From positions 32,428,392 through 32,492,391 of the forward strand of contig CM057142.1 of assembly GCA_029964075.1 (NCBI GenBank): 64,000 nucleotides of DNA. Reading direction: 5' to 3'. The position numbers were made by a program, and so were the translations under genes. The notes under the pieces were generated by a model that had not been told where the DNA came from, ran no database searches, and was given only the letters and a program-made list of their open reading frames with translations. Within the stretch, counting starts at the first letter, position 1. Every line of letters begins with the position of its first letter. Shown here piece after piece: positions 517 through 22,700 of this stretch. This DNA is from Patiria pectinifera (taxonomy: Eukaryota > Echinodermata > Asteroidea > Valvatida > Asterinidae).

Positions 517-1668
517 ATGGAACAGGACGTGCGGGTGAATATGACTAGTGAGTGTAGCAGCTTGCCATCGTGGAACCTGACTTCGCGGGAGGATGCGAGA
601 ATATACCTCCTTGACGATAGCACCAGCACGACAATGCTGACCGTTCTTTTCACCATCTTAGCCGTCGGTATCCCTGGCAATCTTGCCTTTCTCTTCGTAG
701 TGGCTCGTGTGCCGTACATGCGGACCACCACCAATGTCTACCTGGCTAGTCTGGCTGTGGCTGATCTCATGTTTTTGATCAGCAGCATAGTGCAGTACAG
801 CTTCTATCTTACGAAGCCCGTCCGCAGCCACCTACCCACTGCCTCCACCGTGGGTTGTGTGGGCGCCTTCTTCCCCCAGTACGTCACCTATTTCGCCTCT
901 ATCTCCATGGTGAGCCTGGTCGCCCACGAGCAATACAACGCCATCTGTAAGCCGTTCCTCAACCACGGACGGCAGAGCGGCAAGAGGATGAAGCAGAGTT
1001 TAAAGTTGGCGGTCGGTAGCTGGCTGGTGGCCGTTGGCCTGGCTGGTGTAGTTACGGTGCGATACGCGCATCTCTTCAGATTCTGCGCGATCTGGCCGGA
1101 TGAGGAACCTTACCACGACCTACCGGTCCAGTTGGGATACTGTGTGGCCGTCAGTCACTGGGGACTGATTGTCGGTCATGTCTTAGAATCCATCGTCCTC
1201 ATCGTCGCGATGATTACTAATGCAATCAAATACAGCCTGATCATCATCAATCTCAATACCAGAGTGAGACGCAAGCGTGAGCAGAACCCAGTCACGCGCT
1301 CGTCATCTATCCGCACCCAGCAAGCTCGTCGTATCCGTAACCAAGTAGCCCGTATGCTGATTATCAAAGGTGCTGTGTTCTTTCTCTGCCAGGCGCCCTT
1401 CATCGCCTTATCCCTAGGCTTCCTCGTGGAGAATCTAGCCGGGGTCCCGCATGACGTCACGTACCGGAAGTTGGTGCTTGCCCTCACCGTCAGTCACGTG
1501 TTTGTGCTTTTGAATTCGGCGGTCAATCCGATCATCTACAATGTGACGAGCAGCCATTACAGACAAGCCTTTGTGAAAGTCTTCTTCCGTTCAAGACACA
1601 GAGCTGAACGACTGAACAACATTGATGTTGAAGAACCCAAGAATTACGTAGCTGTAACAGCACAGTGA
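517..1668 (+). CDS. Class A (rhodopsin-like) G protein-coupled receptor, neuropeptide/TRH-receptor-like, intronless
   Basis: Predicted 383-aa seven-helix plasma-membrane receptor in one exon. The ATG at 517 has A at -3 and G at +4. The N-terminus has two N-glycosylation sequons (NMT near residue 8, NLT near 20). TM1 carries the GN motif (VGIPGNLAFLF), TM2 has LAVADL with the sodium-site Asp, TM3 follows a Cys (GCVGAFF) able to pair with the ECL2 Cys (RFCAIWP), TM4 has the Trp (GSWLVAVG), and TM7 ends in NSAVNPIIYN. The organisation resembles TRH/neuropeptide-type receptors, which form large intronless sets in echinoderms; that assignment is from memory. Oddities: the E/DRY Arg is Gln (HEQYNAIC), TM5 lacks the usual Pro, and the TM6 toggle Trp of CWxP is Gln (FLCQAPF). 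The basic third loop has Ser/Arg runs. Ligand and G-protein coupling cannot be read from the sequence. Confidence 0.93.
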   Translation: MEQDVRVNMTSECSSLPSWNLTSREDARIYLLDDSTSTTMLTVLFTILAVGIPGNLAFLFVVARVPYMRTTTNVYLASLAVADLMFLISSIVQYSFYLTKPVRSHLPTASTVGCVGAFFPQYVTYFASISMVSLVAHEQYNAICKPFLNHGRQSGKRMKQSLKLAVGSWLVAVGLAGVVTVRYAHLFRFCAIWPDEEPYHDLPVQLGYCVAVSHWGLIVGHVLESIVLIVAMITNAIKYSLIIINLNTRVRRKREQNPVTRSSSIRTQQARRIRNQVARMLIIKGAVFFLCQAPFIALSLGFLVENLAGVPHDVTYRKLVLALTVSHVFVLLNSAVNPIIYNVTSSHYRQAFVKVFFRSRHRAERLNNIDVEEPKNYVAVTAQ

Positions 1669-4456: not shown

Positions 4457-4695
4457 ATGGAGATGGAAGGGTATTATGGTAAAAAGTCTAAATGGCCCAA
4501 GCCCATGTTCTGGGTGCTCACAGCCTTCTTGGCTGCGGTTGGCATCGGTCTCGGGGTGATTATCGGGCATTTTACGGCACCAAAAGGACCGGAGTGTGCC
4601 GTACCGACACCTGATTCAAACACGGGATCAACGCCCATGCCGGGCGTGAACGTCATCGACCCTATCAACGCCGCCAACATTGAGGAGAATCTAAA
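4457..4695 (+). CDS. Peptidase exon 1: cytoplasmic tail, signal-anchor, stalk
   Basis: ATG at 4457 (a second ATG lies two codons on). Encodes a lysine-rich tail, one hydrophobic segment ([16 protein letters not shown]) resembling the NAALADL1 anchor, and a Pro/Thr/Ser stalk ending [12 protein letters not shown]. Ends in phase 2 at AA|GTAGGT. The same frame reaches TAG directly after the junction, so splicing is required. Confidence 0.85.
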
Positions 4696-7600
4696 GTAGG
4701 TAAAAACAGTCTGCAGGGAAGTTAGGGGAGGGGAGGGGCGAAGAAATCCGAACAGAAGGGGGGGTGTTCGTTAAGCACAGCGCAATTGGCTTATTGAAGC
4801 TGTGCCATTCTCAGTAAATGTATATCTTTAGGCCTAAGTCTCTCGTTGCTCTATGCAACAGCAGTCTATTTTCAAAGTCGGTGATGGGGGGGGGGGGCTA
4901 TCTGAGAAAACCAGGGAGGAGATCCGGCTCCCCCGGTCTACCCAAACTTGGATACGTCAGTGGCTTTGTGGAGCAAATGTTCATTGTAAAACGATGATCA
5001 GGGGCCAGAATAAAGATGAAATTCAGACTGTGGCAGAAAGGTCAGAAAAGTGCCGACGAGTATATGAATTAGGTTATTTGTAAAATTAACAAGGCAAAAC
5101 GGAGGTTTGGTTACATAATACAGGCGTTCATGTACTTCAAGAGTGTTCGTCGGTGTCTACTTTGGTACTAATCACCACATCCCCTCGACACCCACTGAAA
5201 TCCCCCACGCCCGTGACTTTCTTATCCGTAGGTTGGTTGCTCCAAAGTCATCGAGCCAGTATGTTTATTCATGACACACAAAATCAAGAGTATTGTTATG
5301 AAGTCAACAACTTTGAACTTTAACCCTAAAGGGGCCGGGGGCGGAATCCGCCCCCCCCCCCCCTCAACATTTTCCGCGATAGCCTCTAAAAAAAAATTTT
5401 CGCTACCCGAGCTGTTATGACTTTTTAACCTCGAGCTTTGCGCATCTTTTGATACCAAAAACATAAAAATCGAACCACGGGTTGCCACGTAGCGAAAACT
5501 TTTCCGGCGCTACGCGCCGTGAAAACTGAATTTTCGCATTGCCATTCGTACATATGAATAATTAATTAGCCATAATTCCAAACACCTTTGACCTATAGTC
5601 ATGAAATTTCTTAGGTATGTTTAGGAAGAGTTACTCTATGCATGTGCTGAGTTTCAAAAATGTTCGTCACTCGATGGCCGAGATCTTGGGGGGGGGGGGC
5701 GGGGCGGAATCCCCCGGCTGAGAGATGGTCAAAATAACCCGGCCTCTTTAGGGTTAAAGCATTTTACCTTTAAAGCATTTTAAAGTACGAACGTCGTCGA
5801 GTTACCACAGTAGAGAAGTGGATAGCAAAATGAGCTATGGATACAGCCCGGATTCGAATCCATGCCGTCACTGCTCATTCTTTTGCATTTATCGTTGATA
5901 TAATTTTATTTTATGGGGAAAAAGAGAGCGAGAACCTAAGTGTCTTGCAACGATTCAAAGGTAAACTGAATTAGACATGCCATTTGAGCAACCCACCTTC
6001 GGACAAAAATCGCCTCCCGCCCGCACTCGCCAGAGCACTCATTCGAAATGTAGACCTGGATCTCCCTCTTGATTTCTGTCATTAAGAAATGTTCAGAGAG
6101 ACAATTTTGGTTAAGATCAGGGAGGGTGACTGTAAAAGGTGACCGCAGAATTTTCGCTTCCCCTTGCCTCCCGCCCGCCACGGAAGATGCAATTATTATA
6201 GTACGTATTTTTATTATTATGTTTATAATTGTGTTGGTGATTACCGACGCAGGTACTTCACTAAGGTCCCACACATCGCCGGATCTCCTGCCGAACGCTC
6301 CAACGCCGAGTACATACGGGACAAGTGGATAGAGCAAGGGCTTGACTCGGCCAAACTGGTTCCCTATGACGTCCTACTATCCTACCCCAATGCCACCATT
6401 CCTAACAAGGTAAAAGGATAATACATAAAGCGCCAGACATCAACCAGTGCGTTGGTTAACATAAACAATCCTTGGTTGAAATAACCAATAATGGACCGAT
6501 AGTGTGGCATTGGAGATGAGCACGTGTAAATTTGCCCACGTGCGCAGTGGGAGGGGCTTACTGGATCGGTCCATTGGTTAATAGGTCTCGTTCAAATGAC
6601 GTCATTTCCTAAAGACCATCCACGTGCATCGGCATTTTTGAGCGTCAACTTGCATATGCATAACGCGCATCGGCTGCGTCGTATTTCGAACACACTTCGA
6701 GCAATATGCAGTTGCACTTCTTCTACAGAAATGGCCGTCATTGAACGAGCCCTACATGTGTCCAACCAACCGATTGATTGGACACACGTAAAACAATTGT
6801 TGGTTATTTCAACCACTCATTGGTGATGTTAACCATGTAGGCCCTATACCACTGTTGTGTAGATATATCCCAACTGCGTAAATATTATCATTTATGACTT
6901 TGAACAAAGAGTTATGCCTGAAATAACAATGGCCCCGACGACCTGCCCAAGATGGCATCGGTAGTGTACACAAACCTACAACTAGACATGTCAAGAGATA
7001 TTTACATGCGGCGTAAATATGACACTGGTTGTGTAGATATATCCCAAATGTGTAAATATATATAATTTATGACTCTGAATAAAGAGGTATACCTGAGAAA
7101 ACAGTGGCCCCGACGACCTGAGCCCAAGTCTCCGTAGGTTTTGTACCTAAACCTAACGAGTCGTGTCAAGAAAAAGTTCAAGCCCAAACAACGACAAAAG
7201 AAGGGAACAGTGAGGGTCCTCGATAGGTTAGTGAAAGTAGACTGTGTATTTGGTAAACCAATCATCATGTCCTGGGCCAAACGATTTACCCTTTAGCCAT
7301 AGTATGGGGCTTACATGTAATTCAAATAATCTTGGCTTTCAGATCAAATATCACAAATGCATGTTTCATCCAATTCGAAATGCGTATAAGCACCAAGCCA
7401 GGCGACCCTATTTAACCCCGAGAATGAATTTAGATACATGTAAAGTGCTTTTACATCGACTGCCAAGTCAATGTCAAAAGTTAATTTCTCGTGGCGCATT
7501 CGGGAGAAATGTCAAGATTGAACGTCTTGGCATATTCTAGATTAGATTTAGATGTATTTATTTTCACACCAGTCGTGGCCCTGAGGCCAAATTAAAAGTG

Positions 7601-10600
7601 TAGTACATGAAATAAACAAAAAGTACAATTAACATTATAGTAAATAAAAATGCGAATATATTGAATAAAACAGTTGGTATAAAACATTTAAGACAAAAAC
7701 GATAAGAACGATACCGCGTTTATATATACATACACTGAAGTTCCGGTAGTAAAAAATAGTTAGAAGTACATTTCGATAAGTGGGAGATAACCTAATTATT
7801 TAGAATGTTGATAAAAAAAAGAGGTTTGAGCTTTTTTTTAACCTGTTAGTTCTTGCAGGTAACAGCGAAATTTTGTTGTTGGACCTGAGACATCTGCCAT
7901 GACTCTCTAACAGTATTGGGGGGGGGGGGGTGAGGGAGCTAGTGCTGGGATTGGTTTTGAGCACTTTAGCAAAATTACAGCAATGCTGCAACCTCCTATC
8001 AGATAGGGAATCCAAATTACAATGTTGCAAGTCATCTGTATAATTGTCAGACCTATCACCCAGTATGATCCTTCAAGCCCTATTTTGGATGGCCTCTAAC
8101 TGATTGATTGTTCCATGTAGTAATACCACGAACAATTTAGATTTCGTTTTTAAATTGCTATTTTAGCAATACGCTAGTCATTCACTCTTACGGAGAAAAC
8201 AGGCCTGCAGTTTTAGTTATAGAATATTTACTTTTCCAATTTCGAATCATTTGCGCCCGAGAATAATTCAGTTCCTGAAGATTGGACTGGTTTCCGCCTC
8301 ATTTTAGTATCGATAATGGAGATTTTGGGAACCAATGTACTTGTATGGTGGATTTGTTTGTGCGCAGTAGCTACCAAAATAAAAGTCTTTCGCCAGAGGG
8401 TTGTAGATTTCCCAAATAGAAAAAGCATTTTTTTTCCCTGTTGAAATAAATACTCAAGCCCAAACCTCGTAATGAAAAACAAAAATACAATTCGTTGAAG
8501 TGCACTGACACTAATCAAGTAAAACTCTCAAAGCTATCAAGTAAAGCTATCAAGTAAAACTCTATTCCAACGACACTGTTGATTTCATCAGGTGTCCATT
8601 CTTGAAGACGGCAATGAGATATTCCACTCGCGGCTTGAGGAGGCGGTGCTCAGACCCGGAGATTACCATCCTGATGTGGTGCCACCATTCAATGCATATT
8701 CCTATCAGGGAGAGCCAGAGGTATAACTTTTTAGCCAATCCACTTTTACTATGCACTTGAGCTCAAACCCCATCCCATCCCATCGATACAATCACATCTG
8801 TTGGTAAGATAGAATTTTTGCGTGGGGATGATGTAAATCAAATTAGGTTTTGCCCTTCACCGACGTATAAACGCTGTATACTCGGTGTGTTTACCTCCCG
8901 GGTGAAAGTTGGGGGGAAAAATCACCCGAGTGATATTTTTCCAACTTTCACTCGGGAGGTAACATTGTTTATACGTCGGTGAAGGGCAAAACCTGATTTG
9001 ATTCATATCTGTTGGCTTTTATGGCAATAAGCCTCTGTACTGATGATGTCACACTTTGTTTACGTGTGTGCTTTCCTATGTATGGTGCTCAGTGGACCGT
9101 GGGGCCTCCACTGGCTCCATAGGAAAGTAAACATGTAAACAAAAGTGTGACGTCATCAGTACAGAGGCTTATTAGGAGACATACATTGATTATTGTGATT
9201 CACATTTATATCACTTCATTTTTTTTAAACAAGTTTTTAAAACAGAGAGATAATAATGATGATAAATCTCGGTTTCGTTGGGTAGGCCCATGTGAATTTG
9301 TTTTTTTGTATTAGATGCACAACATCTCCTTTTCTTTGTTAGCATGTATATACGTACTCTCTAAATTCCAGAGAGTAAAAATTCACTCCATTCAAGTGAG
9401 AATTCACTCCCACAGTCGGAAACTAGGGACAAGACGTTTTAGAGTGAAATTTCTTCGATCGCAAAGATCGAGTTTTCACTCGAGCTTCGACTGAAGTGGT
9501 TAGTTTTTCAGACTATTTCAATCGAAAATGAGAGTGGTTTTCACTCTAAAACGTCCAGTCCATAATTTCACTCTTTGGAATTTAAAGAGTAAGAGTTTCG
9601 TGTATAATCTATACCATCTTCTTTTCTTATAAGGGCGACCTGGTGTATGCGAATTACGCTCGAGTTGAAGACTTCGAATACCTGGAGAAAACTCACAGCG
9701 ATATCAACCTGAATGGAACCATCATTATAGCACGCTATGGAAAGATATTCCGTGGGAATAAGGTGATGATTCATTAGGCCTAATAAAAGATTCATAGTCC
9801 AGTTAGAATACCTCTCAACAGAAAAACAAATCTCTCTTAATTGAGGCACGGTTTGCATTTTCAATTTTTCATTTTAAGATCCGTGAAATGAATTCTTCAC
9901 GGGCACATATTTTGTGCAAGTTAATCAACTTAAGTTTACCAAAACTATTTGACATCCCTTTTTGGTAGTTTTATTGAAAAGTGTACTTCTGAAACATTTA
10001 AAAGTGTTCTTGCTTTTCCATACAACTGAGGGCGTTGTTGCTGTGATGTCATTTCAGGAAGACACTGTTCAGTTTAAGGGTTTTCTGTCCAAGTTGTCGA
10101 AACCCAAAAATTAAATTTGCTTATTGAAAACGTCCGTGAAAACGTTTGCTCACTGGCTTATCGCCATGTACTGACACAACACCAATTCACCACAGAAAAG
10201 AAGATTTAGGACAAGAAAATATTCTAGATTCTGGCAACTTTTTGTGGTGAAATAGCTGTAACATTGAGGTTTTCTGCCTGAAATGACATCACACTTTTGC
10301 TCACGACATGAATAATGGAAATTAAAAAGGCACCAAAAACACCCCTGAAAATGGCAAAACAGAAATTGAAAGTAAGGTTAAATGGGATGCAAAGGTGCAT
10401 TGTCAAGGATTGCATAAAAAAGAATAACATTGCATGGGCCCTTTAACACATATGAAATACTTTGTGGATGAAATCTTCCTTTAAATGGATGGTAAGGAAA
10501 TAAAAGACTGTTATTATTATTATGTTACTGAAGTATTGCCCCCCAAAGTTGCTCTTCTCGTAATATTTTCAAGTTTCACAAGAAAAATGTTGTACATGTA

Positions 10601-13600
10601 CATTGTAGTTGATGTTTTTGAGTGATCGAGTCGAAAATTCTTACAACTTTAGACATCGAATAATTACTTCACAGATTTCGATCTGTACAAGAATCATTCA
10701 AATCACTCATGTACTTTTCAAGTTACGGAATTTTAAACACAAACACCGTTTCAATGTTCTGTCCACGGATCACCTAAAAAAAGGTATCGGGAGTGTTCTT
10801 TCAGCAACTGAACGAAAACAACTTCACCGATGCATCCCTAAATGAGAATTGTTTTCATTTTTCTGAAAGAACACTTGCTTTTGTTTTGATCCGTGGACAG
10901 ACATTTTAAACGGTGTTTGTGTTCAATTCCACAACTTGAAAAGTACATCGGTGATTTGAATGATTCTTGCACTAAAAGAAAGCTCATTTTCAATGACTGG
11001 GATTTCATATCCTAGATTTTGAAAGGGCTCCAGGCAAAACTTCATTCAACAATTGGTCCTGCCATTTGGGTTTCACTATTTTTTATTCGCACTGTTATAC
11101 ATGTAGTATACCCAAGACTCATAAATCAGTGCACCTCCATGCTGCGGCGTGATATCCACAGATAGAACTTAATTTCGTTCTAATTTGGTGCCTTGCTGAG
11201 CCGAACGAAAAGTTTATTCTGACTGATTGCATGTGGCCGACTCTTTGATATTTCTGTTCTAGTTACATTTTAAGATCGACATTGTTCAAGTCACATCTTA
11301 CTGTTGGGAATATCAGCAAACCACGCTGTACACACCGTAATTTTGTAATCCCACAGTTGCTGATATGACCACAAAACAGTCAAGTCAGATTTTACCCCAA
11401 AAAGTCAATTTTACACCCAGAAAATAGCTCTAGTAAGCAAGGTTCAAGTTTGATCGTTTTCTAGAACACGTCTTCTACTTCAGTCAATTTTTTTTTATAA
11501 GTGTATATTCCTCCCAAATCTCGGTTAGGTACTTGGGTAACTAGTCCTCTGAGGCTATAATCAATATATACCTTCCGCTCAACTTCGAAACCTTTTGCCA
11601 CCTCATTTGCTCTGAAATGATCCCCATAACCTGCCCCCTCACACCAACCTACAGGCACTGAATGCCCAGGCGGCAGGGGCCAAGGGCCTGATCCTGTACT
11701 CGGACCCGGCAGACTACGCCATCGATGACGGTGACATCAAGGTGTACCCAGACGGGTGGTGGCTGCCTGAGACCGGAGCGCAGAGAGGCAATACCTTCGT
11801 CAGTGACGCCAAGGGTGACCCGGTCACACCCGGATACCCTGCTAAACGTACGGACTGACATTTCATATACCTGTTCAAATTCATGCTTAATCAAATAAAC
11901 CACGAAGGGAAAACTGAGTAATTGAGTGGAGCGGGGTTTGAACCTGCGACCTCCTCATAACTGTACCGGATAGCTCAGTTGGTAGATCAGTTGATTAGAG
12001 CGCCGGTAGGGTTCAAGTCCCACTTTACTCACTTTCTTTGTTCACATTCATAACAAATTCAAAAATGTATTTGACTGCTCTTCTTCTCATGTATCCGAGT
12101 CGCAGACCATCACAAGTCAATCACAAGTCATCAAGTCTCGCGTCACAAGCTATTGCGCTTGGGTGAGACGAGGAGGGTTTATGTGTTTAGATTTGCTCAC
12201 CGGTTTTCATAGCAACCTTTAACATTAATTCTTGACCCCCTTTGCAGCCTTTGCCTTCCGTATAGACGATTACGATACGGCTCTACCAAAGATACCCGTC
12301 CACCCAATCGGCTACGGTGACGCACAGCTGTTACTCGGGTAAAAATACACATGCAAACAAATATCCTTTGTTGAGGACTAGGACAAACAATATTATCGCT
12401 TTGCCATAGCTTAATTAAAGTTACTCTCTCTGTGCTTTTGATAAAATTCGATTTTCCCTCCCCTCAATTTTCAGTTAGTATGCTTTTAATTTTAAAACAA
12501 ATATTTCTGTTTTATTGTGGGCATCTGCAACCCTCTGAATAGGCTTCTTGGTCGGATTGGTTCTGCGCATCAAGCCACAAAAGATCTGCCTGAATTATAG
12601 CAAACAGGAGAGCAACTTAAAAAGGATTTGACATTATAAAAAAAAACCTTAGTTCTCTGTGTCCCTTTCCGTTTCAAACTGATGCTTGTCCGTCCCGGGC
12701 CGAAAAAATCCAACTGAGGTAATGTCTTTTCTGATTCTCAATCCAGCAACATGACTGGCGAGGAGGTCATTGATGAGTGGAAGGGACATCTGCCTGTCAC
12801 CTACCGCCTTGGCCCAGGTTTTAACGACTCAAGCAGGTTAGTTTTGTGGTATCTAGTTGAATTTGAAGACATCTATTGCTCTTCTCTGTAGTATTTGAAG
12901 TTCTCCGTATTTTTGTGTTTTGGGGAGAGTGTGGAGAGTTCCACTAGTCGAGCTGGACGTGGAAACTCCGATATTATTATACTCATTAAGGCCGGTTCAC
13001 GTATGTGAAGCAAATTATTATGAAATGTGTTCAACTTTTGCAAATCCGCAGCGAAAAACGTGCCGTGATGGCACTTTTGAGCTCATAGGCATGAACCATC
13101 TTGCTTTAACTCATACAGTTGGTGTTACATTGGTTGGGTTTGTTTGGGAAAAGTTGAAGCCCACAAAAATTACGTAATAAAGGGTACTCACGAAATAATA
13201 GTTTAATTTTTTTTCGTACATCTCTACCAGGAACGTGAAAATGACAATCCATACCACCAGAGAGACAAGGACGACTTATGATGTCATTGGTTTCATTCGA
13301 GGTGAAATCGAACCAGGTAGCAAAAAATTACCACATTCCCTCCTTGCAATAAAACAAAAAGTAGTATTGCGTAGCACAAATCGCAATGCAAAACGCACCC
13401 CCCCCCAAAAAAAAAATTAAGAAATTAAATCTCTCGACGTAACTAGTAAATGAGAACGATCCGTCACTATTATAACTGCTAAATACTCAGAAAAACACAA
13501 TCTATAAATACCTTTTCTGAATGTTATTTTTTTTTCAAATGTTCTAAAATGTAATTGGCAGTTCTATTAGATCTCAACAAGTAAGGAGCCCTGTGATCAG

Positions 13601-16600
13601 TTTGATAATAAAGCATAGAATTCCCGATTGCAGTAAACAAACTTATCCTAAGAATCTGTGGTCGCAGAATAGCAGGCCCTATATGTGGATTGGAATTTTA
13701 TCAATTAATTTTGAAACAATTGTTCCAATTGAAGCCTACAATACAATCGGGGTGGGGGGAATGGCTTGTGATAGTTATACTTATCAAGCTCTCATATTTG
13801 TGATTATTTCGTAGCAAGAATATATTATAATTTGAAGCATAAGCTGAAAATGGCAGCTTGATATCGGATCTTAGCACTGGTGTTGTGGAAATTTGAAAGC
13901 GATTTAATGTCGCAAGCTGTTGGACATTTCTTGAATCCGTGATTGATTGCAGATCGGTATGTGGTGATTGGTAATCACCGGGATGCATGGGTCTATGGAG
14001 CCGTCGATCCAAGCAGCGGCACGGCAGCCTTTATGGAGGTATCGCGTGTGTTTGGAGAGCTCAGGAAATCAGGTGAGTGTATGATGATGACCATTTTCGG
14101 GGTGTGGCTTCATTCTCCACTGAGGCACGATGCGGCAATCCAAATTGTTGGTGACTGATTGGACCAGGGATTTGGATTGTTAATCACAAGCTTCAAGTCG
14201 TGAACCAAACGACCTGTTCGAATTGACTGTGGTAAGGCCCATAATCTAGGGGGGAGGTTTGGGGTTCGAACCCCCCCCCCCCCTTGCTGACGAGTTCTGC
14301 TCAGAAATCTATAATAAAAACAAAGCGGGGGAGGGGTTAAAAAGGAAAAAAAATCGCCACCAACAAATTCAAATTTAATGACCCCCATGGTATTGTGTTC
14401 ACAATTGGCCCTGAAGAAGTGCTCGAAAATTCAGTGTAAATGGCCAGGAAATGCCTCAGATTGCACCACAAAGTTTTCCTGGGCCCTCAAAATAGCGGTC
14501 CCGGACCCCACACCGTAAGGGATTCACGCTCCGCACTCGCATATCAAAAGAACAAGTTTGGGGTTTGACCCCCCCCCCTGGGATCAGGGAACGGCCCTGG
14601 TGGTAAAGGTGTTCCTTTGTCATTGACCATCTAACTTGTGTTTTAGCTTGTCGTTGGCTTGTGATTGGCTTGTGGTGGACTTCAATACATGTTTGCAAAT
14701 TGGGAAGTGGTTGTGCAGGCTATAAGGCCGGTTTCAGATTAAGTGGGGTCGAAGGCTATTTTTTTTTTATGGCATGGACATGTTTCAGAGCAGGTAATAA
14801 CATTAGGTATCAGTATTTATGGTGGACAAGTAGGCCTATACAATACGGTATCCTCCCATAAAAACAAAATGAAACAGTCTGCCTGGCTTCCTTATTTTTA
14901 TTTTATTACAGCACTAAAATACTATAGTCCGAACAGCTGTTTAACTGATAAAAGCCACCCTGTACGTATAAGACTGCAAAAAAATTAATAAAAAATGAAT
15001 AAAAAATAAAAATACTGTGTATGAGAGCTCCCAAAATTAAGTTATTGAAAGCATGCAGCACAAGAAAATAGACTAGTTCTGGCACATGTGTTGTGTTGGC
15101 TAAAGAGTGAGTAAAGTTGGCCTGAAGTAGTTTTGCATGTTTTTCTGCACTCACGGTCCAAATCTGCTGAAATACCTGATACTTCCACCCCGAATTAAGA
15201 TGAGGAAAAAAACAGATTCGAAACAGAACAAGAAAATATCATTTTACGTACATCAGACATTTGATTTTGTAACTTTTGTGTTAAAGGTTGGAAACCAAGA
15301 CGGACCATCGTATTTGGGAGCTGGGGAGCTGAAGAGTATGGTCTTCTAGGATCTACAGAGTTCGTGGAGGTAGGCAAATATTCAGAGAGCGACAATACGG
15401 AAAATGGCTATAGTTTACAACAAAAAAATCAATATTTAAGACTGTACTTACACTTCTGTTCAGACTTTTACTGTACTTAAGATATGAATTGCATTGGGTT
15501 TCAATGAAATCTTTGACTTGACCGACTTCACACTTATTAAGGCAGACTGTTAATTGGAGTAAGTCTTTATAATGTGAATTATTCAGTCCGTGATCAATTG
15601 ACAGAAAGTGCCTCCAGTACAGTAATTTTTAACTCCTGACAACTAAACTTTCGAGAGCTAATTTTTCTAATAGGTTAGTGAGGACATCCAGGAACTTCTG
15701 AAATCTCCTTATCTCATTCCCAGACCCATTTTCATAAAACTGAAAATGAGTCTGGAGTCCTGAATGTTAACATCTAGCAACCGATGAAAATGCACATAAA
15801 TCATGAGCAACCGCCCTAAATGCTGTCATATATTTAAAGGGAATATACATCATTTGCTTTTGCTGTAATTTTCAGAAATGGATGGAATTTGGGGGGGTAT
15901 ATAATATATAGCATATAGTTACTGACTTTTTTTTTTGAGGTTTTGTTGAAAAAAATAAAATAAAAACCAAAAAAAACAATTTCCTGTAGTCTGGTTCACT
16001 GACTCCATTTAAGAAGAACAAACAAGTTTAGATATTATATGTGGAATTGTTCAGGGAACCAGTCAGTGTGGCTTGTCGTTCATACATGTTTGTGTGTAAT
16101 CGATTAACAACAATGATGGTCAATCAAAAAGGGTGAAAAAAAAAAAAAAAGTTTTGAAGCCCAACGCTGATCATACGCGGAATACATACAAAAAATACTT
16201 TTCTTGAAAAAAATCAAAGTATACCAGCCATGATTTTTTTACATGCTTTTTTACTCACATTCACTCATTAACCACAAAGGTATTTCAAAGGTATTTCATT
16301 TTTTTTTTTTAGAAATGTTATATTTAATATATTAATTGTCATGTATTTTACCTGTGAAATATCTAATAAATAATAAATTTTTAAAAAAAGCTGAAAAGTA
16401 GAAAAATTACAAAGAAATGATGTAAAAGCTTTTGTTTGTTTTTTTCTACAGGAGTTTCAGAGAGTACTTGCCGCAAGGGCTGTGGCATACATCAATGTAG
16501 ACTCTGCTGTGACTGGTAACTATTCACTGAGTGTCAAATCAACGCCATTGCTCTACCAGGCAATCTATGCAGCCTCCAAGAAGGTCAGCAATTCCACAGT

Positions 16601-19600
16601 TTTTCTTTTTGTTCCATTATTCATTGGGAAAAGAGTAAGGAAGTGGCAGGCCCAGTGGCGGATCTAACCTTCAGGAAGCAGGGAGAGGGGGATGGGGGCG
16701 GGGAAATGACAGGGGATGACAGGGGGGTTGCAGGAGTGTGTAGGCGTGCCTGCGGGCGGCGGGGCATGCCCTCCAGAAAAATTTGAAATTTGATGCTTTC
16801 TTCTTTATTTCTAAGGCAATTTGAGAATCAATTCAGGAACTTTACCATCCAATTTATTATATTTGCCCCAGTTTACAAGTAAAACATTTGCTGCTGTTGG
16901 GGGGGGGGGGATTGAGGGGGAGTTTAACACCCCCCCCCAACCCCCTCTAGATCCGCCACTGGCAGGACATGTAGGAGGCGTGGCCTACTTCTAAAACATG
17001 CTTATTAAAGAACAAATGACCTTCTTCCCAATAAGAATTGTTTTTAAAAATTAAACGAAATTAGACAACGTATAATCTATCAATCCTAGCGGAATCTTTG
17101 TCGAAGGCAAACATGACAAATACAAACAGATAAGAAAGGGGCATAGAACTATGCATGGGTGGAAGGAAAAACAAAGGGACGGTGAAGGAACAAACAAAAG
17201 AAGAGGACAGCATAGGAGGAGGGTTAGACATTTAAAAAAAAAAAAAGTATGAGGTTTGTGTGATTTTCTTGGAGGGTCGTGTTTTATCGTTGTTGTAGTG
17301 CCTTGGGGAGCCAAGTGATTACAGAAGTTACAGTTTGAGGGGAATTGTGAATTATTGGTCAAAGATATCTGAATTTGTAACGAGTCACCCAATTGGTCAT
17401 TCCGAAAAGTAGGCGGTAGTTTACAGCCATTTGTGACTCAGTTTAGACATGCAATTTAACAGAGACACAAAACTTAAATTTAAGATTGGTGCAAAATTTT
17501 ATCTTGTATTTATTTCATGTGTTGGTCAGGTGCCTGATCCAGAAGACCTATCAACATCGTTGTATGATACATGGCGAGATCGTTTACCTGCAGATGCTAA
17601 CGATCCCAATACACTGCCAAGGTAATGAGAAAAAAAGTGTTCAGTGTTGAAAACATTCCTCCAAAACACTTTATCCCCTCCTTAAAGGAAAATCAGAAAT
17701 GTTCTTAAAGAGCAAATGAAGGGCGAGCTTTTTCTTTACAATATTTGGCTCATAATAAGGGAATAAATGTGTGCTTGGGAGGTGTTAAACACTATGTTTA
17801 AGACTGGTTGGAGTCTGGAATGCTGATAATTACCCAATCATTTCAGACTCCAACCAGTCTTAAACATAGTGTTTAATACCGACCAAGCACATATGAATTA
17901 CCATTCATAACTACCTTTTCGGACCAAAAAACAAATCATTTTGGTTCAAAAATTAAAGACGAGTCAAAAACTAGACGTTACGAATCATTTTGTTCACCAA
18001 TTTTACTTCATGTTTTATGAAACCCCTCCGACTATAATATGGAATGTACCTCTACAACTCCTTACCTTGTAAGGAGATTGGTGCGAGCGTTGCGCGTACT
18101 GTGCAAAATGCAGCTGGTCCGGTGTAGTCTGATTTTGGACTACGAGACACTGATTTACTGTATTGCGCATGCCTACGTGAGGATTGTGAACGTTCAACCA
18201 AAAAAAAAACGGTAAAAGGCACTGGATCTCATGGGAGTCCAAATTTCATGTCACACTGGAAAAGTTTTTAAGACCAGCCGGCCCATGGGCGTCGCCAGGA
18301 TTTTTTCTAGAGGGGGCAAAACATATTTTTCCCAAAAAAATCTTGTATTTCTCAACAAATTCTCGATGTATCAGTTTTAGAGGGGGCAGGGACATTTTGC
18401 CCCCCCCCCCCAACTCATTAGATTTACACCACTATGACTTCGCGCCTTTTTTTTTTTTTTTTCCTTCCTTTTTTTTTTTTTGGGGGGGGGCTTTCGGGGC
18501 TTTTCCGGGGGCCCATGAGCCGGCCATGTCTTTTAAGACCGGCCACGTGACGGGCTCTCGACCAGTAGGAATGGCTAAACTGTCTTAGGTATTTATGAAT
18601 GTCATATTACACTTTGACATCGTTGACCATTGTACGATTTTTATTTGACAGAGTCAGTAATCTTGGTGCGGGGAGCGATTTTGCCCCATTCATGTATCGT
18701 ATCGGAGTATCATCAGTTGATCTCTATTACACATATGATCCTGTAAGTCGAACCAATCACCATGCAAATTGCAATCAGCATAACGTTTAGAAAGTCTGAT
18801 TTTTTTGGTTGCATTTCATCATTTTTTCCCCCCTGCAGAGTCAGTAATCTTGGTGCGGGGAGCGATTTTGCCCCATTCATGTATCGTATTGGAGTATCGG
18901 CAGTTGATCTCCGTTACAGATATGATCCTGTAAGTCGAAACCAATCACCAAACAAGTTGCAATCAACCTAACATTTAGAAAGTCAATTTTGTTTGTATTT
19001 CATCATTTTTTCCCCTCTCGCAGAATCAAGAATATGGGTTCGGGGAGCGATTTTGCTCCCTTCATGTACAGAATTGGGGTGCCAGCTATGAGTATGACTT
19101 TTTGTTGTAAATACCACGTAAGTTCAACTTTTGGACGCATGTATATGTTGCTGTGTCCCTCCGTATTGGCCAATTACCCTTGACAATATCCAGCATACCA
19201 ATCCACCAGCACTCCAGCCTGCAGCTAACACCCCTGCCTGGGACTGAATTGCATGTGCATGTCTAACTAGTCTCCGTCCTGGGACAGTAGTTTTTGTTTT
19301 CTCCATCCATCCACAGAGAGTGTGTGCATAAATGGCTTGAATTGCTCAAGCGCAGTTAACACAATAATGTGTGAAATCTCTTTGTTTGAGGCAATTGTTA
19401 CAATTTCAAAACTGTGAATTTTTACTTCGCCAATTTCAAAAATTGTGATCAAATCAGCCACAAGTCAATCGAAAGTCTGTCACAAGTCAAGCACAAGTCA
19501 CAAGTAACACGAGACAATGACTAGTAACAATGACTAAGGATTGTTTTGGTAGAAATTATTTGAAGTTGGTATTGCATGCTTTGTTAAAAATTTCGATTGC

Positions 19601-22600
19601 TTTTTCCGAACGATATTTTAACGAACATCATGTCCTGTAACAAATAACTTTGCTAGTTCATTTTTGCAGGCCTTTATACAGTTTTAAAATTTGGTTTTAA
19701 ATGGCGCTGTCTAGTTCAGAAATTGTGCACACTATTCAGATCGAATTAGTGTTTCGCTCTTAATTCAAATGTTGAAATTAATTAATTCGTGCTTACTTAA
19801 TTGTCATGGGCCGATTTTTTTTTCGTGCGATCTCATTTTGATCATGCATGGAAAGCTCATAACTAAATGTAATGCTAGAAAATTCTCAATTCAATTTGAA
19901 AATCTATTTTTCAACGTGCCACAACTGACCAAAAAGCATGTATACATCCCCTTTAAATAGCTAACCACTTAACTGAACCGGGAATGGATGCACAAATGAA
20001 TTTTGAGTGACTCTTGATGACTTGTGAAGGCTTACATCTAAGACATTTTGTCTCAAAAACACTGGAGATTTCAGACAAAACATTTTTGGGGTTTACTCTT
20101 TACAGCAAAGTTTAACATATTTTCTTGTCTTGTTACTAACAGTCTCTGGGAATATCCAGCTATCCCGTTTACCACTCGGTCTACGAGACCTTCTACTACA
20201 TGAAGACGTTCTTGGACTACGATTTCCTCCGTCACCAGGCCGTGGCCAGACTCTGGGCAGAGGTGGCCCGAGACCTGGCCGAGTCCGTCATACTTCCCTT
20301 CGACTGCACCGACTACGTGACCAAGATCACAGGGTCCATGGATACGGTGAGGACTGCATACGAGGCACAGATGGCTGCGCAGGGAATCACTTTTGGTGAG
20401 GGGGAAATTTACTGGTAATAATCATCCTATCGCAGAGTGCTAAGTGGTGTGGAAGTTAAGTCCATCACAAACCCATCACAAGTCTGGTCACAAGGGGGGG
20501 GGGGGGGAGTGTCAAACTGGGGGGGGTGTTAAGGAAATAATTTACGGGGGAAAATGCCCCCATGCCCCACCGTAGCACCACCACTGTTAAGGGTTGGGGT
20601 AAGTATTAAGGAATATGAGCAGTCTCCCAAAAAAGAGACAAAACATCGTCCTAGAAAATTAACATGGTGCAAATAAGATTAATTACCGTGACTTCTCCTA
20701 GTGCATAATTTTTAGTCGATGAACACCTAATAATCATGAACCTCATTTTAGTATCCTAAAATCTTGTACAAGGTTTCAAGAAAGATCCGAATCTTACGAA
20801 CACTTCCTTCCTCCATGATGTTATGTAATAATTGTATGATTTCTGTCACAGATTACATCTACTCTGCTCTGGCCAACTTTTCAGCAGCTGCCACTGAATT
20901 TGAGAAAGTCATCTCACAGACCGACATGAAAGAGTAAGACATTAACAGATAAAACTTATTATATGACTGACATACAGATCCTTGTCGTTTGATTGGTGGA
21001 ACTCACATCACATGACATTTATTATTGCTCCCATTCACGCCCGTGCCCAAAAAGTCCCATTCGCCCATGGGGAAATGGAATTACTATTCAACAGTTAGGA
21101 TCATCCTTGTTCCATGACGCGGTATTTGTGTGCAAATTGCTGGTGTGCGCGTTCAGCGTTGCGCATAGCGCGTAATCTGGACTTTTCCAGTTCACCCGGC
21201 TTCGCCTCTTGAACTGGAAGAGTCCAGAATTTACAGAGCGATAATCCTTCCATTCCACGCTAAGCCACTCAATATTTGTATACTAATTAACTTGCAAGCT
21301 TGCAGCATGCATGTGGAGAAAATTACTGAATTGAAAGCATTTTCAATAAGCCATTATTCTACAAAGTGGCCACAGAGTATTGTGGGAAGGAAAAAATTGG
21401 CACATTATATTGCCCACTACGTCTTCTTAAATTGCTTCATTGGTTTTTGTGCAAAGTAAGTGGATTTACAACAAGGTCTAGTATGACCCCTGATGTGTAT
21501 TTTTTGTGCTGATCATTTTCTAGTTTGATGGCTGTGCGTCGAGTCAACGATCAATTGATGCAACTTGAACGAGCTTTCATTGATCCTCTTGGACTACCAG
21601 ATCGCAAATTTCTTAGGTGAGATCTAACAAAATATTAATCCAAATATCTTAATGGGCCTAATGCACGAGTTGGCCACTTTGAGTCGAGCTCCCTGACAGT
21701 ATTTCATTAATTGCTAACTGTAGAATGGGATGGCGCCAGACTATTTATTCAGGAATTATGCAGCCTTATTTTACTGTCTTTTTTTTTTTAAATCTGGCTT
21801 TAAACATTAGGCAATGTTTAATTACAAATCTTAAATTATTCATTAAGGCAGACTGGAATTAATTAGTAATTAACTTGCTTTCATTTTTCTTTGCAAGTTT
21901 CAAAAATTAATATTTTACCTCACTTTCAATTCAATATGGCCGACTCGTGCATAAGGCCCATACTCCAAGAACCAACATAAAGTTCTGCACATTTTCAAAG
22001 TCCAAAGAATCTGTCATTGGTTTTATATCACACATTGAAAGATTTGTGAGGGTTCAGGAATTATAGAAATTCCCGACTGTGTGTGGGGGTGTGTTCACGA
22101 GGCCTGGTGGCAAAGCTGTTTGCTCCACGAAACGGGCAAGACAAAGCATCGTTTACGACATAAGAAAGTAGGAGTGTGTACATGATCCTTATTCAAACCT
22201 TGCATCTTACAACATTCTGCTATTGCTAAAAATAACACTTGGTTTAAAAATTCAATTTCAGACAGCTTGGAGACATCAACTTAAAAAATAAAAGGTTAAA
22301 TTTTCAGGTGTGAAACTGTTTTGGTATAATCCCAAGTTTCCGATTTAAGTGGGATAAAGTAGGTGTATTTCTGTTTAGTTTAAAAATCAGTAATTTAAAA
22401 ACTCTTTTGAGTTTGACAAGAATCAGCCACGAATCTCAGATTCCAGAGATGGTACTTTTTTTTCTTTCTTCATTTACAATTATTGTTTCCATTTACAGAC
22501 ACATAGTGTTTGCACCAAGCAGTAAGAACTACTACGCTGCAGATGCCTTCCCGGGCATCGTTGACGCCATGTATCGAATCGACGAAGCACTAGACCAAGA

Positions 22601-22700
22601 TGAGCGCTGGGATATTGTCAAGCAACAAATGGCAGTCACAACACATGCCATCCAATCAGCAGTCAGCACACTACAGGATGTGCTGGCATTCGATGGTTAA
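4457..22700 (+). CDS. FOLH1/NAALADL1-like: Glutamate carboxypeptidase II / NAALADase-like M28 metallopeptidase, 17 exons (whole gene)
   Basis: Spliced product 753 aa, close to human GCPII (750). Type II membrane ectopeptidase with two zinc ions that removes residues from small peptides outside the cell. Layout: cytoplasmic tail 1-16, signal-anchor about 17-40 (ending [10 protein letters not shown]), protease-associated domain split by the peptidase domain, C-terminal helical dimer domain. Zinc ligands are present: H380 (GNHRDAW), D390 (GAVDPSSG), E428 with catalytic base E427 ([11 protein letters not shown]), D456 (INVDSAV), H555 (YPVYHSV). The S1' Arg (NYARVED) is kept, but the positions of human N257 and K699 read W (GWWLPE) and Y (NYYAAD), as in NAALADL1-like members, so strict C-terminal glutamate preference is doubtful. 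All 16 junctions keep frame. Exon 13 has three alternative copies. Specific orthology (FOLH1, NAALAD2 or NAALADL1) is unresolved. Confidence 0.93.
5324..5753. mobile_element. piggyBac-like MITE, 430 bp, TTAA-flanked
   Basis: Ends CCCTAAAGGGGCCGGG and CCCGGCCTCTTTAGGG are near-perfect inverted repeats, and both flanks are TTAA (5320-5323, 5754-5757). TTAA followed by CCC is the piggyBac insertion hallmark. Interior has poly-C and poly-G runs and no coding frame. In peptidase intron 1. Confidence 0.88.
5800..5880 (+). mobile_element. tRNA-derived SINE head fragment
   Basis: GTGGATAGC...GAGCTATGGAT followed by a B-box-like GGATTCGAATCC. The same segment recurs reversed at 39535-39605, so this is an interspersed repeat rather than a tRNA gene. 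Confidence 0.5.
6253..6409 (+). CDS. Peptidase exon 2
   Basis: Acceptor CGACGCAG|GTACTTC, donor AACAAG|GTAAAA, phase 2 to 0. Encodes [12 protein letters not shown]...[19 protein letters not shown], matching the N-terminal peptidase segment of GCPII (YDVLLSYPN is diagnostic). Confidence 0.93.
6442..6836. mobile_element. Inverted-repeat MITE, about 0.4 kb
   Basis: The left end (GGTTAACATAAAC...GGTTGAAATAACCAA) is matched inversely at the right end (TTGGTTATTTCAACC...GTTAACCATG). The interior segment near 6590-6715 (CCACGTGCATCGGCATTTT) recurs reversed at 31860-32035. In peptidase intron 2. Confidence 0.7.
6845..7160. repeat. Tandem duplication, about 175-bp unit, two copies
   Basis: The segment GTTGTGTAGATATATCCCAA...GGCCCCGACGACCTG occurs at about 6853-6945 and again at 7029-7120, diverged by substitutions and small indels. 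Each copy contains TTTATGACT followed by an AT-rich block. In peptidase intron 2. Confidence 0.65.
7525..7700 (-). mobile_element. Possible LINE 3' end, reversed
   Basis: TTTATTTTCACACCAGTCGTGGCC is the kind of 3' end seen on L2/CR1-type elements read on the - strand. No coding part is present. Low confidence. Confidence 0.3.
8592..8720 (+). CDS. Peptidase exon 3
   Basis: Acceptor TTTCATCAG|GTGTCC, donor CCAGAG|GTATAA; 43 codons, phase 0. Encodes [14 protein letters not shown] and [15 protein letters not shown], matching the GCPII segment that leads into the protease-associated domain. Confidence 0.93.
8835..9004. mobile_element. Palindromic MITE, 170 bp
   Basis: Two arms of about 75 bp pair almost fully: AAATCAAATTAGGTTTTGCC ... 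GGCAAAACCTGATTTGATT, with CTCCCGGGTGAAAGTT opposite AACTTTCACTCGGGAG near the centre. In peptidase intron 3. Confidence 0.75.
9026..9173. mobile_element. Palindromic MITE, 148 bp
   Basis: AATAAGCCTCTGTACTGATG at the left is matched inversely by CATCAGTACAGAGGCTTATT at the right; the inner arms TTCCTATG/CATAGGAA also pair. Only 21 bp separates it from the preceding palindrome. Confidence 0.75.
9355..9591. mobile_element. Inverted-repeat MITE rich in CACTC motifs
   Basis: Ends TACTCTCTAAATTCCA and TGGAATTTAAAGAGTA are inverted; inner arms GACGTTTTAGAGTGAAA and TTTTCACTCTAAAACGTC also pair. The right end is about 42 bp before peptidase exon 4. Confidence 0.65.
9634..9762 (+). CDS. Peptidase exon 4: start of protease-associated domain
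   Basis: Acceptor TCTTATAAG|GGCGAC, donor AATAAG|GTGATG; 43 codons, phase 0. [18 protein letters not shown] contains the Arg equivalent to GCPII R210, which grips the substrate carboxylate. Ends with [12 protein letters not shown]. Confidence 0.94.
10688..10969. mobile_element. Long hairpin MITE, arms about 85 bp
   Basis: Left arm CAAGAATCATTCAAATCAC...CTGTCCACGGATCA pairs with right arm TGATCCGTGGACAG...GTGATTTGAATGATTCTTG. Inner GTGTTCTTTCAG/CTGAAAGAACAC also pair. In peptidase intron 4. Confidence 0.75.
11655..11847 (+). CDS. Peptidase exon 5: protease-associated domain
   Basis: Acceptor CCTACAG|GCACTG, donor TAAAC|GTACGG, phase 0 to 1. Contains [15 protein letters not shown] and [16 protein letters not shown]. 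The Asn of human GCPII (N257, S1' pocket) is Trp here. GC-rich relative to its introns. Confidence 0.94.
11915..12035. mobile_element. Head-to-head pair of tRNA-SINE fragments
   Basis: The + strand half has TAGCTCAGTTGGTAGA (A-box-like) and GGTTCAAGTCC (B-box-like). The half just upstream carries a reversed B box (GGTTTGAACC). An intact tRNA cloverleaf is not formed, so this is a SINE remnant. Confidence 0.5.
12248..12338 (+). CDS. Peptidase exon 6
   Basis: Acceptor CCTTTGCAG|CCTTTG, donor CTCGG|GTAAAA, phase 1 to 2. Encodes [20 protein letters not shown] and [19 protein letters not shown] is a family signature. Confidence 0.93.
12747..12836 (+). CDS. Peptidase exon 7
   Basis: Acceptor AATCCAG|CAACATG, donor AAGCAG|GTTAGT, phase 2 to 2. 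Encodes [20 protein letters not shown] and [15 protein letters not shown] matches the GCPII family; NMT and NDS are potential glycosylation sites. Confidence 0.92.
12990..13085. mobile_element. Left-end fragment of a TTAA-GGCCGGTT piggyBac-like MITE
   Basis: TTAAGGCCGGTTCAC at 12986 matches the start of the complete copy at 54337-54542 and of another fragment at 47747. No right end is visible. Confidence 0.5.
13231..13316 (+). CDS. Peptidase exon 8
   Basis: Acceptor TCTACCAG|GAACGTG, donor CCAG|GTAGCA, phase 2 to 1. Encodes [20 protein letters not shown] and IRGEIEP, the strand leading into the zinc-binding core. Confidence 0.92.
13953..14072 (+). CDS. Peptidase exon 9: first zinc ligands
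   Basis: Acceptor GATTGCAG|ATCGGT, donor ATCAG|GTGAGT, phase 1 to 1. [20 protein letters not shown] carries His380 and bridging Asp390, equivalent to GCPII H377 and D387. Confidence 0.95.
14160..14620. mobile_element. Degenerate poly-G/poly-C MITE region
   Basis: Contains GGTTCGAACCCCCCCC and a later CCCCCCCTGGGATCAGGG...GGCCCTGG, resembling the end of a CAGGGCCGTTCC-type hAT-like element. Ends are not both definable. In peptidase intron 9. Confidence 0.35.
15287..15369 (+). CDS. Peptidase exon 10: catalytic Glu
   Basis: Acceptor TGTTAAAG|GTTGGA, donor GTGGAG|GTAGGC, phase 1 to 0. [20 protein letters not shown] contains Glu427 (general base) and Glu428 (zinc ligand). WGAEE matches NAALADL1 rather than the WDAEE of GCPII. 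Confidence 0.95.
15838..16160. mobile_element. Left part of a TTAA-AGGGAATATAC MITE
   Basis: TTAA then AGGGAATATACATCATTTGC and TTTTGCTGTAATTTTCAGAA match the 520-bp copies at 33950 and 41661, including the internal GTCTGGTTC(C) block. The right half is replaced by A/T-rich sequence. In peptidase intron 10. Confidence 0.6.
16452..16583 (+). CDS. Peptidase exon 11: third zinc ligand
   Basis: Acceptor TTTCTACAG|GAGTTT, donor AAGAAG|GTCAGC (non-consensus +3 C); 44 codons. [16 protein letters not shown] carries Asp456, equivalent to GCPII D453. Confidence 0.94.
16653..16961. mobile_element. hAT-like MITE, CAGTGGCGGATCTA ends
   Basis: Left end CAGTGGCGGATCTA, right end TAGATCCGCCACTG. Flanks GGCAGGCC (left) and GGCAGGAC (right, if its first G is shared with the terminal G) agree at 7 of 8 bases. 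In peptidase intron 11, 70 bp after the exon. Confidence 0.7.
17530..17621 (+). CDS. Peptidase exon 12
   Basis: Acceptor TTGGTCAG|GTGCCT, donor CCAAG|GTAATG, phase 0 to 2. Encodes [20 protein letters not shown]. Ends with AG, which needs an A from exon 13 to give Arg. Confidence 0.92.
17769..17893. mobile_element. Palindromic MITE, 125 bp
   Basis: GTGCTTGG...ACTATGTTTAAGACTGGTT pairs with AACCAGTCTTAAACATAGT...CCAAGCAC around a short AT centre. It lies in the intron upstream of alternative exons 13A-C, where a stable hairpin could affect splicing; that effect is speculation. Confidence 0.75.
18287..18514. mobile_element. GGGCGTCGC-type MITE
   Basis: Begins GGGCGTCGCCAGGATTTTTT and shares the AGAGGGGGCA...TTTACACCACT body with copies at 49079 and 60857. 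Right end GGGGCCCAT is degenerate. Sits 138 bp upstream of exon 13A. Confidence 0.6.
18652..18742 (+). CDS. Peptidase alternative exon 13A (S1-pocket cassette)
   Basis: 91 bp, acceptor TTTGACAG|AGTCAG, donor GATCCT|GTAAGT, phase 2 to 0. Encodes residues 514-544, with [15 protein letters not shown] then [11 protein letters not shown]. The second part aligns with the human GCPII segment holding Arg534 and Arg536 of the S1 arginine patch, reading Asp and Tyr here. It resembles NAALADL1 (GAGSDYAPF, SSMDIAYTYD). Followed by a 96-bp intron and copy 13B. Confidence 0.92.
18839..18929 (+). CDS. Peptidase alternative exon 13B (S1-pocket cassette)
   Basis: 91 bp, acceptor CCCTGCAG|AGTCAG, donor GATCCT|GTAAGT. 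The first 51 bases equal 13A; six differences follow, two silent and four giving Ser535Ala, Tyr539Arg and Thr541Arg ([11 protein letters not shown]). The Arg at 539 falls where GCPII has Arg536. Read directly after 13A it starts Ser-Gln-stop, so 13A and 13B cannot both be included. Confidence 0.9.
19024..19117 (+). CDS. Peptidase alternative exon 13C (divergent S1-pocket cassette)
   Basis: 94 bp, acceptor TCTCGCAG|AATCAA, donor TACCAC|GTAAGT, same phases as 13A/13B. Keeps [17 protein letters not shown] but ends [12 protein letters not shown], one codon longer and with two cysteines. Its upstream intron is homologous to the 13A-13B intron. If spliced after 13A or 13B it reads into TAA at 19108-19110. 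It could be a decayed copy, but the frame, both splice sites and the family motif are intact. Confidence 0.8.
20143..20395 (+). CDS. Peptidase exon 14: last zinc ligand, dimer domain start
   Basis: Acceptor ACTAACAG|TCTCTG, donor TTTTG|GTGAGG, phase 0 to 1. [16 protein letters not shown] carries zinc ligand His555; then [11 protein letters not shown] and [15 protein letters not shown]. If all three exon-13 copies are skipped, the frame shifts and reaches TGA within about 20 codons. Confidence 0.95.
20852..20933 (+). CDS. Peptidase exon 15
   Basis: Acceptor TGTCACAG|ATTACA, donor AAAGA|GTAAGA, phase 1 to 2. Encodes [20 protein letters not shown], the helical C-terminal domain. Confidence 0.92.
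20961..21285. mobile_element. Copy of the CTGGACTTTTCCAG hairpin repeat family
   Basis: Contains TCTGGACTTTTCCAGTTCA followed by its inverse, flanked by GACATACAGATCCTTGTC and AAGCCACTCAATATTTG. The same arrangement, reversed, occurs twice in the PLC-beta intron at 37490-38545. In peptidase intron 15. Confidence 0.6.
21524..21616 (+). CDS. Peptidase exon 16
   Basis: Acceptor TTTTCTAG|TTTGAT, donor CTTAG|GTGAGA, phase 2 to 2. [20 protein letters not shown] is nearly invariant in the family. Confidence 0.95.
21652..21961. mobile_element. TIR MITE, 310 bp (ATGGGCCT ends)
   Basis: ATGGGCCTAATGCACGAGTT at the left and its inverse AACT/GACTCGTGCATAAGGCCCAT at the right, with one or two mismatches. 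AT-rich centre. In peptidase intron 16. Confidence 0.75.
22499..22700 (+). CDS. Peptidase exon 17: C-terminus and stop
   Basis: Acceptor ATTTACAG|ACACAT. Encodes [20 protein letters not shown] then a helical tail ending [10 protein letters not shown] and TAA. GCPII has NKY here; this protein has NYY, so the S1' Lys (K699) is replaced by Tyr while the following Tyr is kept. The end GATG|GTTAAT could act as a weak donor (see the candidate exon at 25442). Confidence 0.94.

Follow-up and report, generated by a model that had tools for sequence, protein, structure and literature searches.

Mutually exclusive exons that switch the substrate of an enzyme have been described for coq-2, in which exons 6a and 6e, found in C. 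elegans, helminths, molluscs and annelids, are supported by RNA-seq and by exon removal; the report calls such cases rare and names CYP4F3 (PMC7434440). In OGDH, the distance from the donor to the branch points of the intron between exons 4a and 4b is 25–41 nt in human and 46 nt in sunfish, short of a steric limit of about 50 nt (PMC7969005). In neurons of C. elegans, the choice of unc-32 exon 7a depends on a UGCAUG/RBFOX site that lies in the intron following exon 7b (PMC3585155). A survey of human clusters of mutually exclusive exons states that 60% hold exons not divisible by three and that 9% may use steric interference; its criterion for a cluster is junction reads that connect each copy to both flanking exons and bridge the others (PMC5740500).

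We report here on a locus in a 64-kb window, the whole stretch of sea star (Patiria pectinifera) DNA that was analysed, which probably holds three mutually exclusive exons, clustered in tandem, in the gene of a membrane zinc peptidase (GCPII/NAALAD2 family, M28B). Like coq-2 as described, it has homologous, putatively exclusive exons of a length other than a multiple of three (in coq-2 equal, 134 nt) that would remodel the core of an enzyme. In contrast, coq-2 encodes a prenyltransferase and has two copies in several phyla, whereas the sea-star gene encodes a zinc peptidase, has three copies and is known from genome sequence. The described OGDH switch affects calcium sensitivity, not substrate. 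The described unc-32 gene resembles the locus in having a three-copy cluster (4a–4c) and a UGCAUG site after the last copy (7b of the 7a/7b pair), but it encodes a V-ATPase subunit, its control was shown experimentally and its site favours the upstream copy 7a. The principle is known from coq-2 and CYP4F3; the array, its three copies and its location in the pocket of a GCPII-family enzyme appear to be the new part. An earlier note, made from the sequence alone, had known of no such exon set in this family, and we likewise found no report of one among the open-access papers listed in our searches.

The peptidase gene and its three copies of exon 13

The rebuilt gene model (Table 1) keeps an intact reading frame over 17 exons, and its predicted product has 753 aa with copy A or B and 754 aa with copy C. 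With copy B the product is identical at 743 of 753 positions, with 10 differences, to P0001, annotated as "N-acetylated-alpha-linked acidic dipeptidase 2-like isoform X2 [Patiria miniata]", which carries copy B exactly and served as a proxy for isoform B. P0001 has the Pfam domains PA, Peptidase_M28 and TFR_dimer, and its model matches human GCPIII and GCPII structures with a TM of 0.85 and 47–48% identity over about 690 columns. Residues H380, D390, E427, E428, D456 and H555, which we take from GCPII to be the zinc ligands and the catalytic Glu, are identical in 35/35 aligned relatives (our choice out of 120 listed) and also occur in the model built from the window. From these domains on P0001, and from the key residues in both P0001 and the window model, the protein can be assigned to M28B. 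The orthologue of Asterias amurensis, P0002, carries no isoform label and has a B-like exon-13 segment.

Table 1. Positions of the peptidase gene, its exon 13 array and RBFOX-type motifs within the window
Feature	Position	Strand	Remark
M28B peptidase gene (NAALAD2-like)	4457..22700	+	spliced model, 17 coding exons
Peptidase exons 1-6	4457-4695, 6253-6409, 8592-8720, 9634-9762, 11655-11847, 12248-12338	+	
Peptidase exons 7-12	12747-12836, 13231-13316, 13953-14072, 15287-15369, 16452-16583, 17530-17621	+	
Peptidase exons 14-17	20143-20395, 20852-20933, 21524-21616, 22499-22700	+	follow 13A, 13B or 13C
Constant exon 12	17530..17621	+	donor to every exon-13 copy; leaves 2 codon bases, AG
Exon 13A	18652..18742	+	91 nt
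Intron A-B	18743..18838	+	96 nt
Exon 13B	18839..18929	+	91 nt; copy found in P. miniata isoform X2
Intron B-C	18930..19023	+	94 nt
Exon 13C	19024..19117	+	94 nt; pocket one residue longer
GCATG (RBFOX-type core)	19137..19141	+	starts 20 nt after exon 13C
Tandem TGCATGTGCATG	19250..19261	+	two RBFOX-type hexamers; 133 nt after exon 13C
Constant exon 14	20143..20395	+	acceptor for every exon-13 copy; holds His555 zinc ligand

The earlier note had described three copies of exon 13 within 466 bp, with splice sites and equal phases, of which the frame allows exactly one, and this description is borne out. Each copy is directly preceded by AG and directly followed by GTAAGT; two codon bases enter from exon 12 and all copies exit in frame. 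On a human-type matrix the acceptor/donor scores are 3.3/2.9 for A, 8.8/2.9 for B and 8.8/3.9 for C, and the acceptor of A is the weakest of the three. All lie inside the range of the gene's other exons scored against the same matrix (acceptors −0.7 to 11.4 for exons 2–12 and 14–16, donors −0.5 to 8.5). The frame reads through when A, B or C is used singly, while all five other combinations (none, A+B, B+C, A+C and A+B+C) run into early stops. As the exon length cannot be divided by three, a transcript yields protein only when it holds a single copy; the others would be lost to nonsense-mediated decay (NMD). The locus shows what is expected of a mutually exclusive exon cluster, namely neighbouring homologous exons of similar length and the same phase, each with its own splice sites, whose joint inclusion or skipping leaves no usable product. 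Among annotated proteins, P0001 supports the use of copy B only. A fourth copy was not found by tblastn in the window. Introns of such short length are peculiar to the array: the 14 constant introns measure 394–2182 nt, and the two on its flanks 1030 and 1025 nt.

Several other features were observed in the window. An open frame of 392 codons at 490–1668 (+) encodes a rhodopsin-family GPCR (7tm_1, E 1.8e-26), whose best solved match is the thyrotropin-releasing hormone receptor (E 1.6e-15). It ends about 2.8 kb upstream of the peptidase start, so that a neuropeptide-type receptor adjoins a membrane peptidase. Intron 12 contains at 17759–17902 a large hairpin with 64-nt arms, 88% complementary, and a 16-nt loop, 750 nt upstream of A, possibly a foldback transposon or an editing substrate. 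On the minus strand, 42602–42937 encodes a C2 domain (E 3.2e-5); the ORFs at 41082–41576 (−) and 53238–53795 (−) have no Pfam match and look like pieces of the same gene, which by its resemblance is perhaps a phospholipase C beta. A 1.2-kb minisatellite of about 11-nt units (GACTTGTGATG) at 43510–44714 is open in all three minus-strand frames over 431–545 codons, a pitfall for gene finders.

The exchanged segment of the substrate pocket

By alignment to chain 9hlw, in human numbering, exon 13 corresponds to residues 511–541 of human GCPII, from Arg511 to Trp541. As described in PMC9976286, the S1 pocket of GCPII includes Asn519, Arg534 and Arg536, the S1' pocket includes Gly518, and the arene-binding site includes Arg511 and Trp541. 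These six positions all fall inside exon 13, which by this alignment appears to encode much of S1 and of the arene-binding pocket. In the P0001 model the constant half of the segment is predicted to form a loop and a helix (525–531), and the variable half a strand (534–541). All three copies retain the five exon-13 positions at which 34 or all 35 of the chosen relatives agree. Residues 534 and 536 are Asp/Tyr in A, Asp/Arg in B and Ser/Thr in C, the pairs that the earlier note had given; A also has Thr538, and C has a Cys-Cys pair and lacks the family-typical Asp534 and Tyr537.

The earlier note had also seen one half kept and the pocket part varied, and the counts agree with it. Between B and C, 10 of 11 codons in 21–31 change the residue, in a gap-free comparison despite the one extra codon of C, vs 4 of the 20 earlier ones (Fisher p 0.0004); A and B differ at three residues, each of them encoded in the final 11 codons (p 0.037). 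These tests are small and partly post hoc. Each copy would thus keep the catalytic scaffold, a Gly-X-Gly-Ser-Asp loop with the helix, and supply a different pocket strand.

Human GCPII (FOLH1) and GCPIII (NAALAD2) share with the sea-star protein the fold, the domains, the zinc ligands and the segment encoded by exon 13, but the sea-star enzyme differs from GCPII in its three pocket cassettes and in several specificity residues. The position of Arg463 is Ser and lies in constant exon 11. Among 123 relatives (the best 120 protein matches, rich in birds, plus three from a search with the C pocket), position 534 is Asp in 64, Arg in 55 (mostly vertebrates by name) and Ser in 2; in the chosen alignment it is Asp in 31/35. 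Position 536 is R in 88, S in 12, T in 8, L in 5, W in 4 and others in 6 of the 123, and Tyr in none. The S1 arginine patch R463/R534/R536 is absent in every isoform, and only B keeps Arg536. Three of the four S1' residues R210, N257, K699 and Y700 are kept in a by-eye alignment count, with Tyr for K699. With the patch incomplete and Lys699 replaced, no isoform should behave like a classical NAALADase, and GCPII-type specificity for NAAG is not expected.

The "NAALADase-like peptidase" of the earlier note holds for the intact M28B enzyme with its zinc ligands and catalytic Glu but probably not for GCPII-type specificity. Its view of the arginine patch as the varying feature has to be given up, because 463 is a constant Ser and Asp534 is the commonest residue among the relatives. 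The real variable is position 536 with its neighbours. Judged from the alignment, B is nearest to the invertebrate relatives, A has an aromatic residue at 536 and C alters nearly the whole strand. The position of the segment suggests that substrate choice changes between the copies, and the family variation there strengthens this suggestion. A swap of copies would most likely alter the accepted P1-side residues, and three enzymes that differ in substrate taste could plausibly come from one gene. A database search with the C pocket region (21 matches/22 candidates) found no C-like cassette in other proteins; the best match was P0001 with 74% identity.

Origin and retention of the copies

Exons A and B are identical at 85/91 positions, B and C at 64/88 aligned positions with 9 gap columns, and C and A likewise at 64/88, while introns A-B and B-C agree at 81/92. 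This resemblance is not due to chance. An ancestral 91-nt phase 2-to-0 exon, encoding one side of the substrate cavity, would have been duplicated inside the gene. On the simplest path an older duplication gave C, and A and B arose later, when a 187-nt unit of exon plus intron was duplicated in tandem. The zero differences between A and B in their first 50 nt would have a probability of 0.0017 at the intron divergence if all sites were free; gene conversion was considered for this identical start and set aside, since amino-acid constraint suffices (11 silent sites, 0.25).

The rest of the genome provides a comparison. A search of the assembly with P0001 gave at least 49 exon matches at other family loci, at least seven in number: one on contig C14 at 22.34 Mb and two each on C17, C16 and C6. 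Stretches from six of these seven loci, one of them on C16, were compared. Five paralogues (C14, two on C17, two on C6) have a single exon 13 between exons 12 and 14; in the C16 stretch no exon 13 was found (one weak match, E 0.19). In the three paralogues in which it was measured (L023, L024, L025), exon 13 spans 91 nt between AG and GT. This suggests that the asymmetric length, and hence the frame lock, was inherited, so that a duplicate could survive only as an exclusive alternative. Within 100 kb on either side of the gene, tblastn (E 0.01) detected no tandem gene paralogues. The C17 pair (about 475–496 kb and 720–740 kb) lies about 245 kb apart with DNA-identical exons 13, and the C6 pair (about 1.573 and 1.587 Mb) lies on opposite strands; both represent recent whole-gene duplication in the family, beside the exon duplication here.

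Relatives from the same species were considered as possible pairs of alternative exons. Of the 11 pairs compared, 8 were from the same species (Anneissia, Lytechinus variegatus, Diadema, Glandiceps, Saccoglossus), and in none of these were the differences confined to the exon-13 segment; these proteins thus look like paralogues.

It could be argued that the gene uses only B and makes one enzyme, A being a recent, nearly neutral duplicate and C a relic in decay or a decoy exon. This would agree with the match of the annotated isoform to B, with the Arg at 536 that brings B closest to the family, with the acceptor of A, the weakest of the three, and with the atypical residues of C. We nevertheless consider it improbable. 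C is free of stops, has good splice sites and has changed in length by exactly 3 nt. Moreover, B and C differ in codons 8–20 by seven nucleotide changes in six codons, all of them silent, which occurred at a frequency of 1e-5 in 200,000 trials of a simulation without selection; the codon limits were picked after viewing the alignment, and the changes may sit on the branch of B or of C. With 7/7 core changes silent, C looks maintained as coding sequence. Similarly, the frame, splice sites and fixed residues are all retained in A, whose residue changes are confined to the pocket half. Finally, the label "isoform X2" implies at least one further annotated isoform, perhaps one that does not differ at exon 13.

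All three copies might instead be used with functionally equivalent pockets, the choice among them tuning expression through NMD of mis-joined products. The design is indeed prone to NMD, as every wrong combination leads to an early stop, and position 536 varies among the 123 relatives. This reading also seems quite unlikely, because the residue differences cluster in the half that lines the pocket, being neither spread nor silent, and because C replaces the commonest 534 residue with a Ser seen in 2 of the 123 relatives and adds two cysteines.

The assembly artefact that the earlier note had named as a danger, with alleles of one exon placed in tandem, is very improbable: the high heterozygosity of sea stars and the similarity of A to B would suit it, but the introns differ at 11/92 aligned sites with indels and exon C at 24/88, which is much for alleles, and the 466-bp array DNA occurs at one place of the 613.5-Mb, 1020-contig assembly, on a 54.9-Mb contig, where no second copy was found. 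A 60-residue peptide around C likewise gave 9 matches in the whole assembly at E up to 10, of which three were the copies themselves, one was exon 14 of the gene and the other five, at three paralogues, were insignificant (E 0.26 to 2).

Control of the exon choice and its possible meaning

On the preferred reading, three mutually exclusive copies, the frame and NMD alone are enough to purge wrong products. The very short introns, whose branch point would lie too near the upstream donor, perhaps help to exclude joint use. Intron B-C has a CTAAC with its adenine 42 nt from the 5' splice site, its best-scoring match, with a rival TTCAT at 73 nt; intron A-B has an ATAAC at 41 nt, which scores below CTGAT (57 nt) and equal to TTCAT (76 nt). 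Both are possible distant branch points and would lie under the limit of about 50 nt at which those of OGDH forbid joining. The gene would share with OGDH, as described, exclusive copies and a short distance from donor to branch point, but the OGDH branch points were mapped, whereas those of the sea star are predicted and have rivals at 57–76 nt. A simple steric model with the match nearest the acceptor was rejected: with TTCAT at 73–76 nt the spacing would still allow joining, and exclusivity would depend on the distant sites only. Even these would not block joining of A to C.

A second lead is the RBFOX-type cluster after C (Table 1). Neither A nor B has a GCATG inside 200 nt, and the gene's remaining exons have at most one GCATG per 200-nt flank; among 200-nt windows of the 64 kb, 0.86% contain at least two TGCATG and 0.25% at least three GCATG. 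When the number of flanks examined is allowed for, a role of this UGCAUG cluster in guiding exon choice is suggestive only. As the unc-32 site favours the upstream copy, sites after C could favour either C itself or one of the upstream copies A and B. Both leads, branch points and RBFOX-type motifs, were noticed post hoc.

Docking/selector RNA pairing of the Dscam type, in which a single site would pair with an element next to every copy, was addressed by sliding three elements (the 60 nt before A, intron A-B and intron B-C) along introns 12 and 13C-14 and computing duplex energies, with shuffles of each element (20, then 60). Intron B-C paired with 19978–20037 at a duplex energy of −34.6, and 2/60 shuffles were as strong, this being one of six tests; in the other five pairings 11, 51, 34, 46 and 41 of 60 shuffles were as strong. 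Intron A-B paired weakly at 19978–20037 (51/60), and the upstream side of A pairs at a different site from that of intron B-C (one species). After six tests such pairing is not convincing. The RNA fold of the whole array has a z of −1.1, with 1/20 shuffles as good.

These leads can be combined with the pocket differences into one scheme, which we put forward tentatively and regard as rather doubtful in its entirety. The gene would make three peptidases of differing P1 preference. B, with Arg536, would be near the ancestral taste; A, with Tyr536/Thr538, would have an aromatic pocket wall absent from the 123 relatives; and C, with Ser534/Thr536 and Cys-Cys, would be a distinct enzyme. Tissue choice between C and A/B would be set by RBFOX proteins through the UGCAUG cluster that follows C, and distant branch points would forbid the joining of A to B and of B to C.

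Splice-switched active sites of enzymes are described as rare (PMC7434440), and here the swapped exon aligns with the well-studied pocket of a drug target, PSMA/GCPII. The cluster would offer three natural pockets on the same scaffold, with which the residues that set P1 preference could be tested directly. Exon duplication would also be seen alongside whole-gene duplication within one family and genome.
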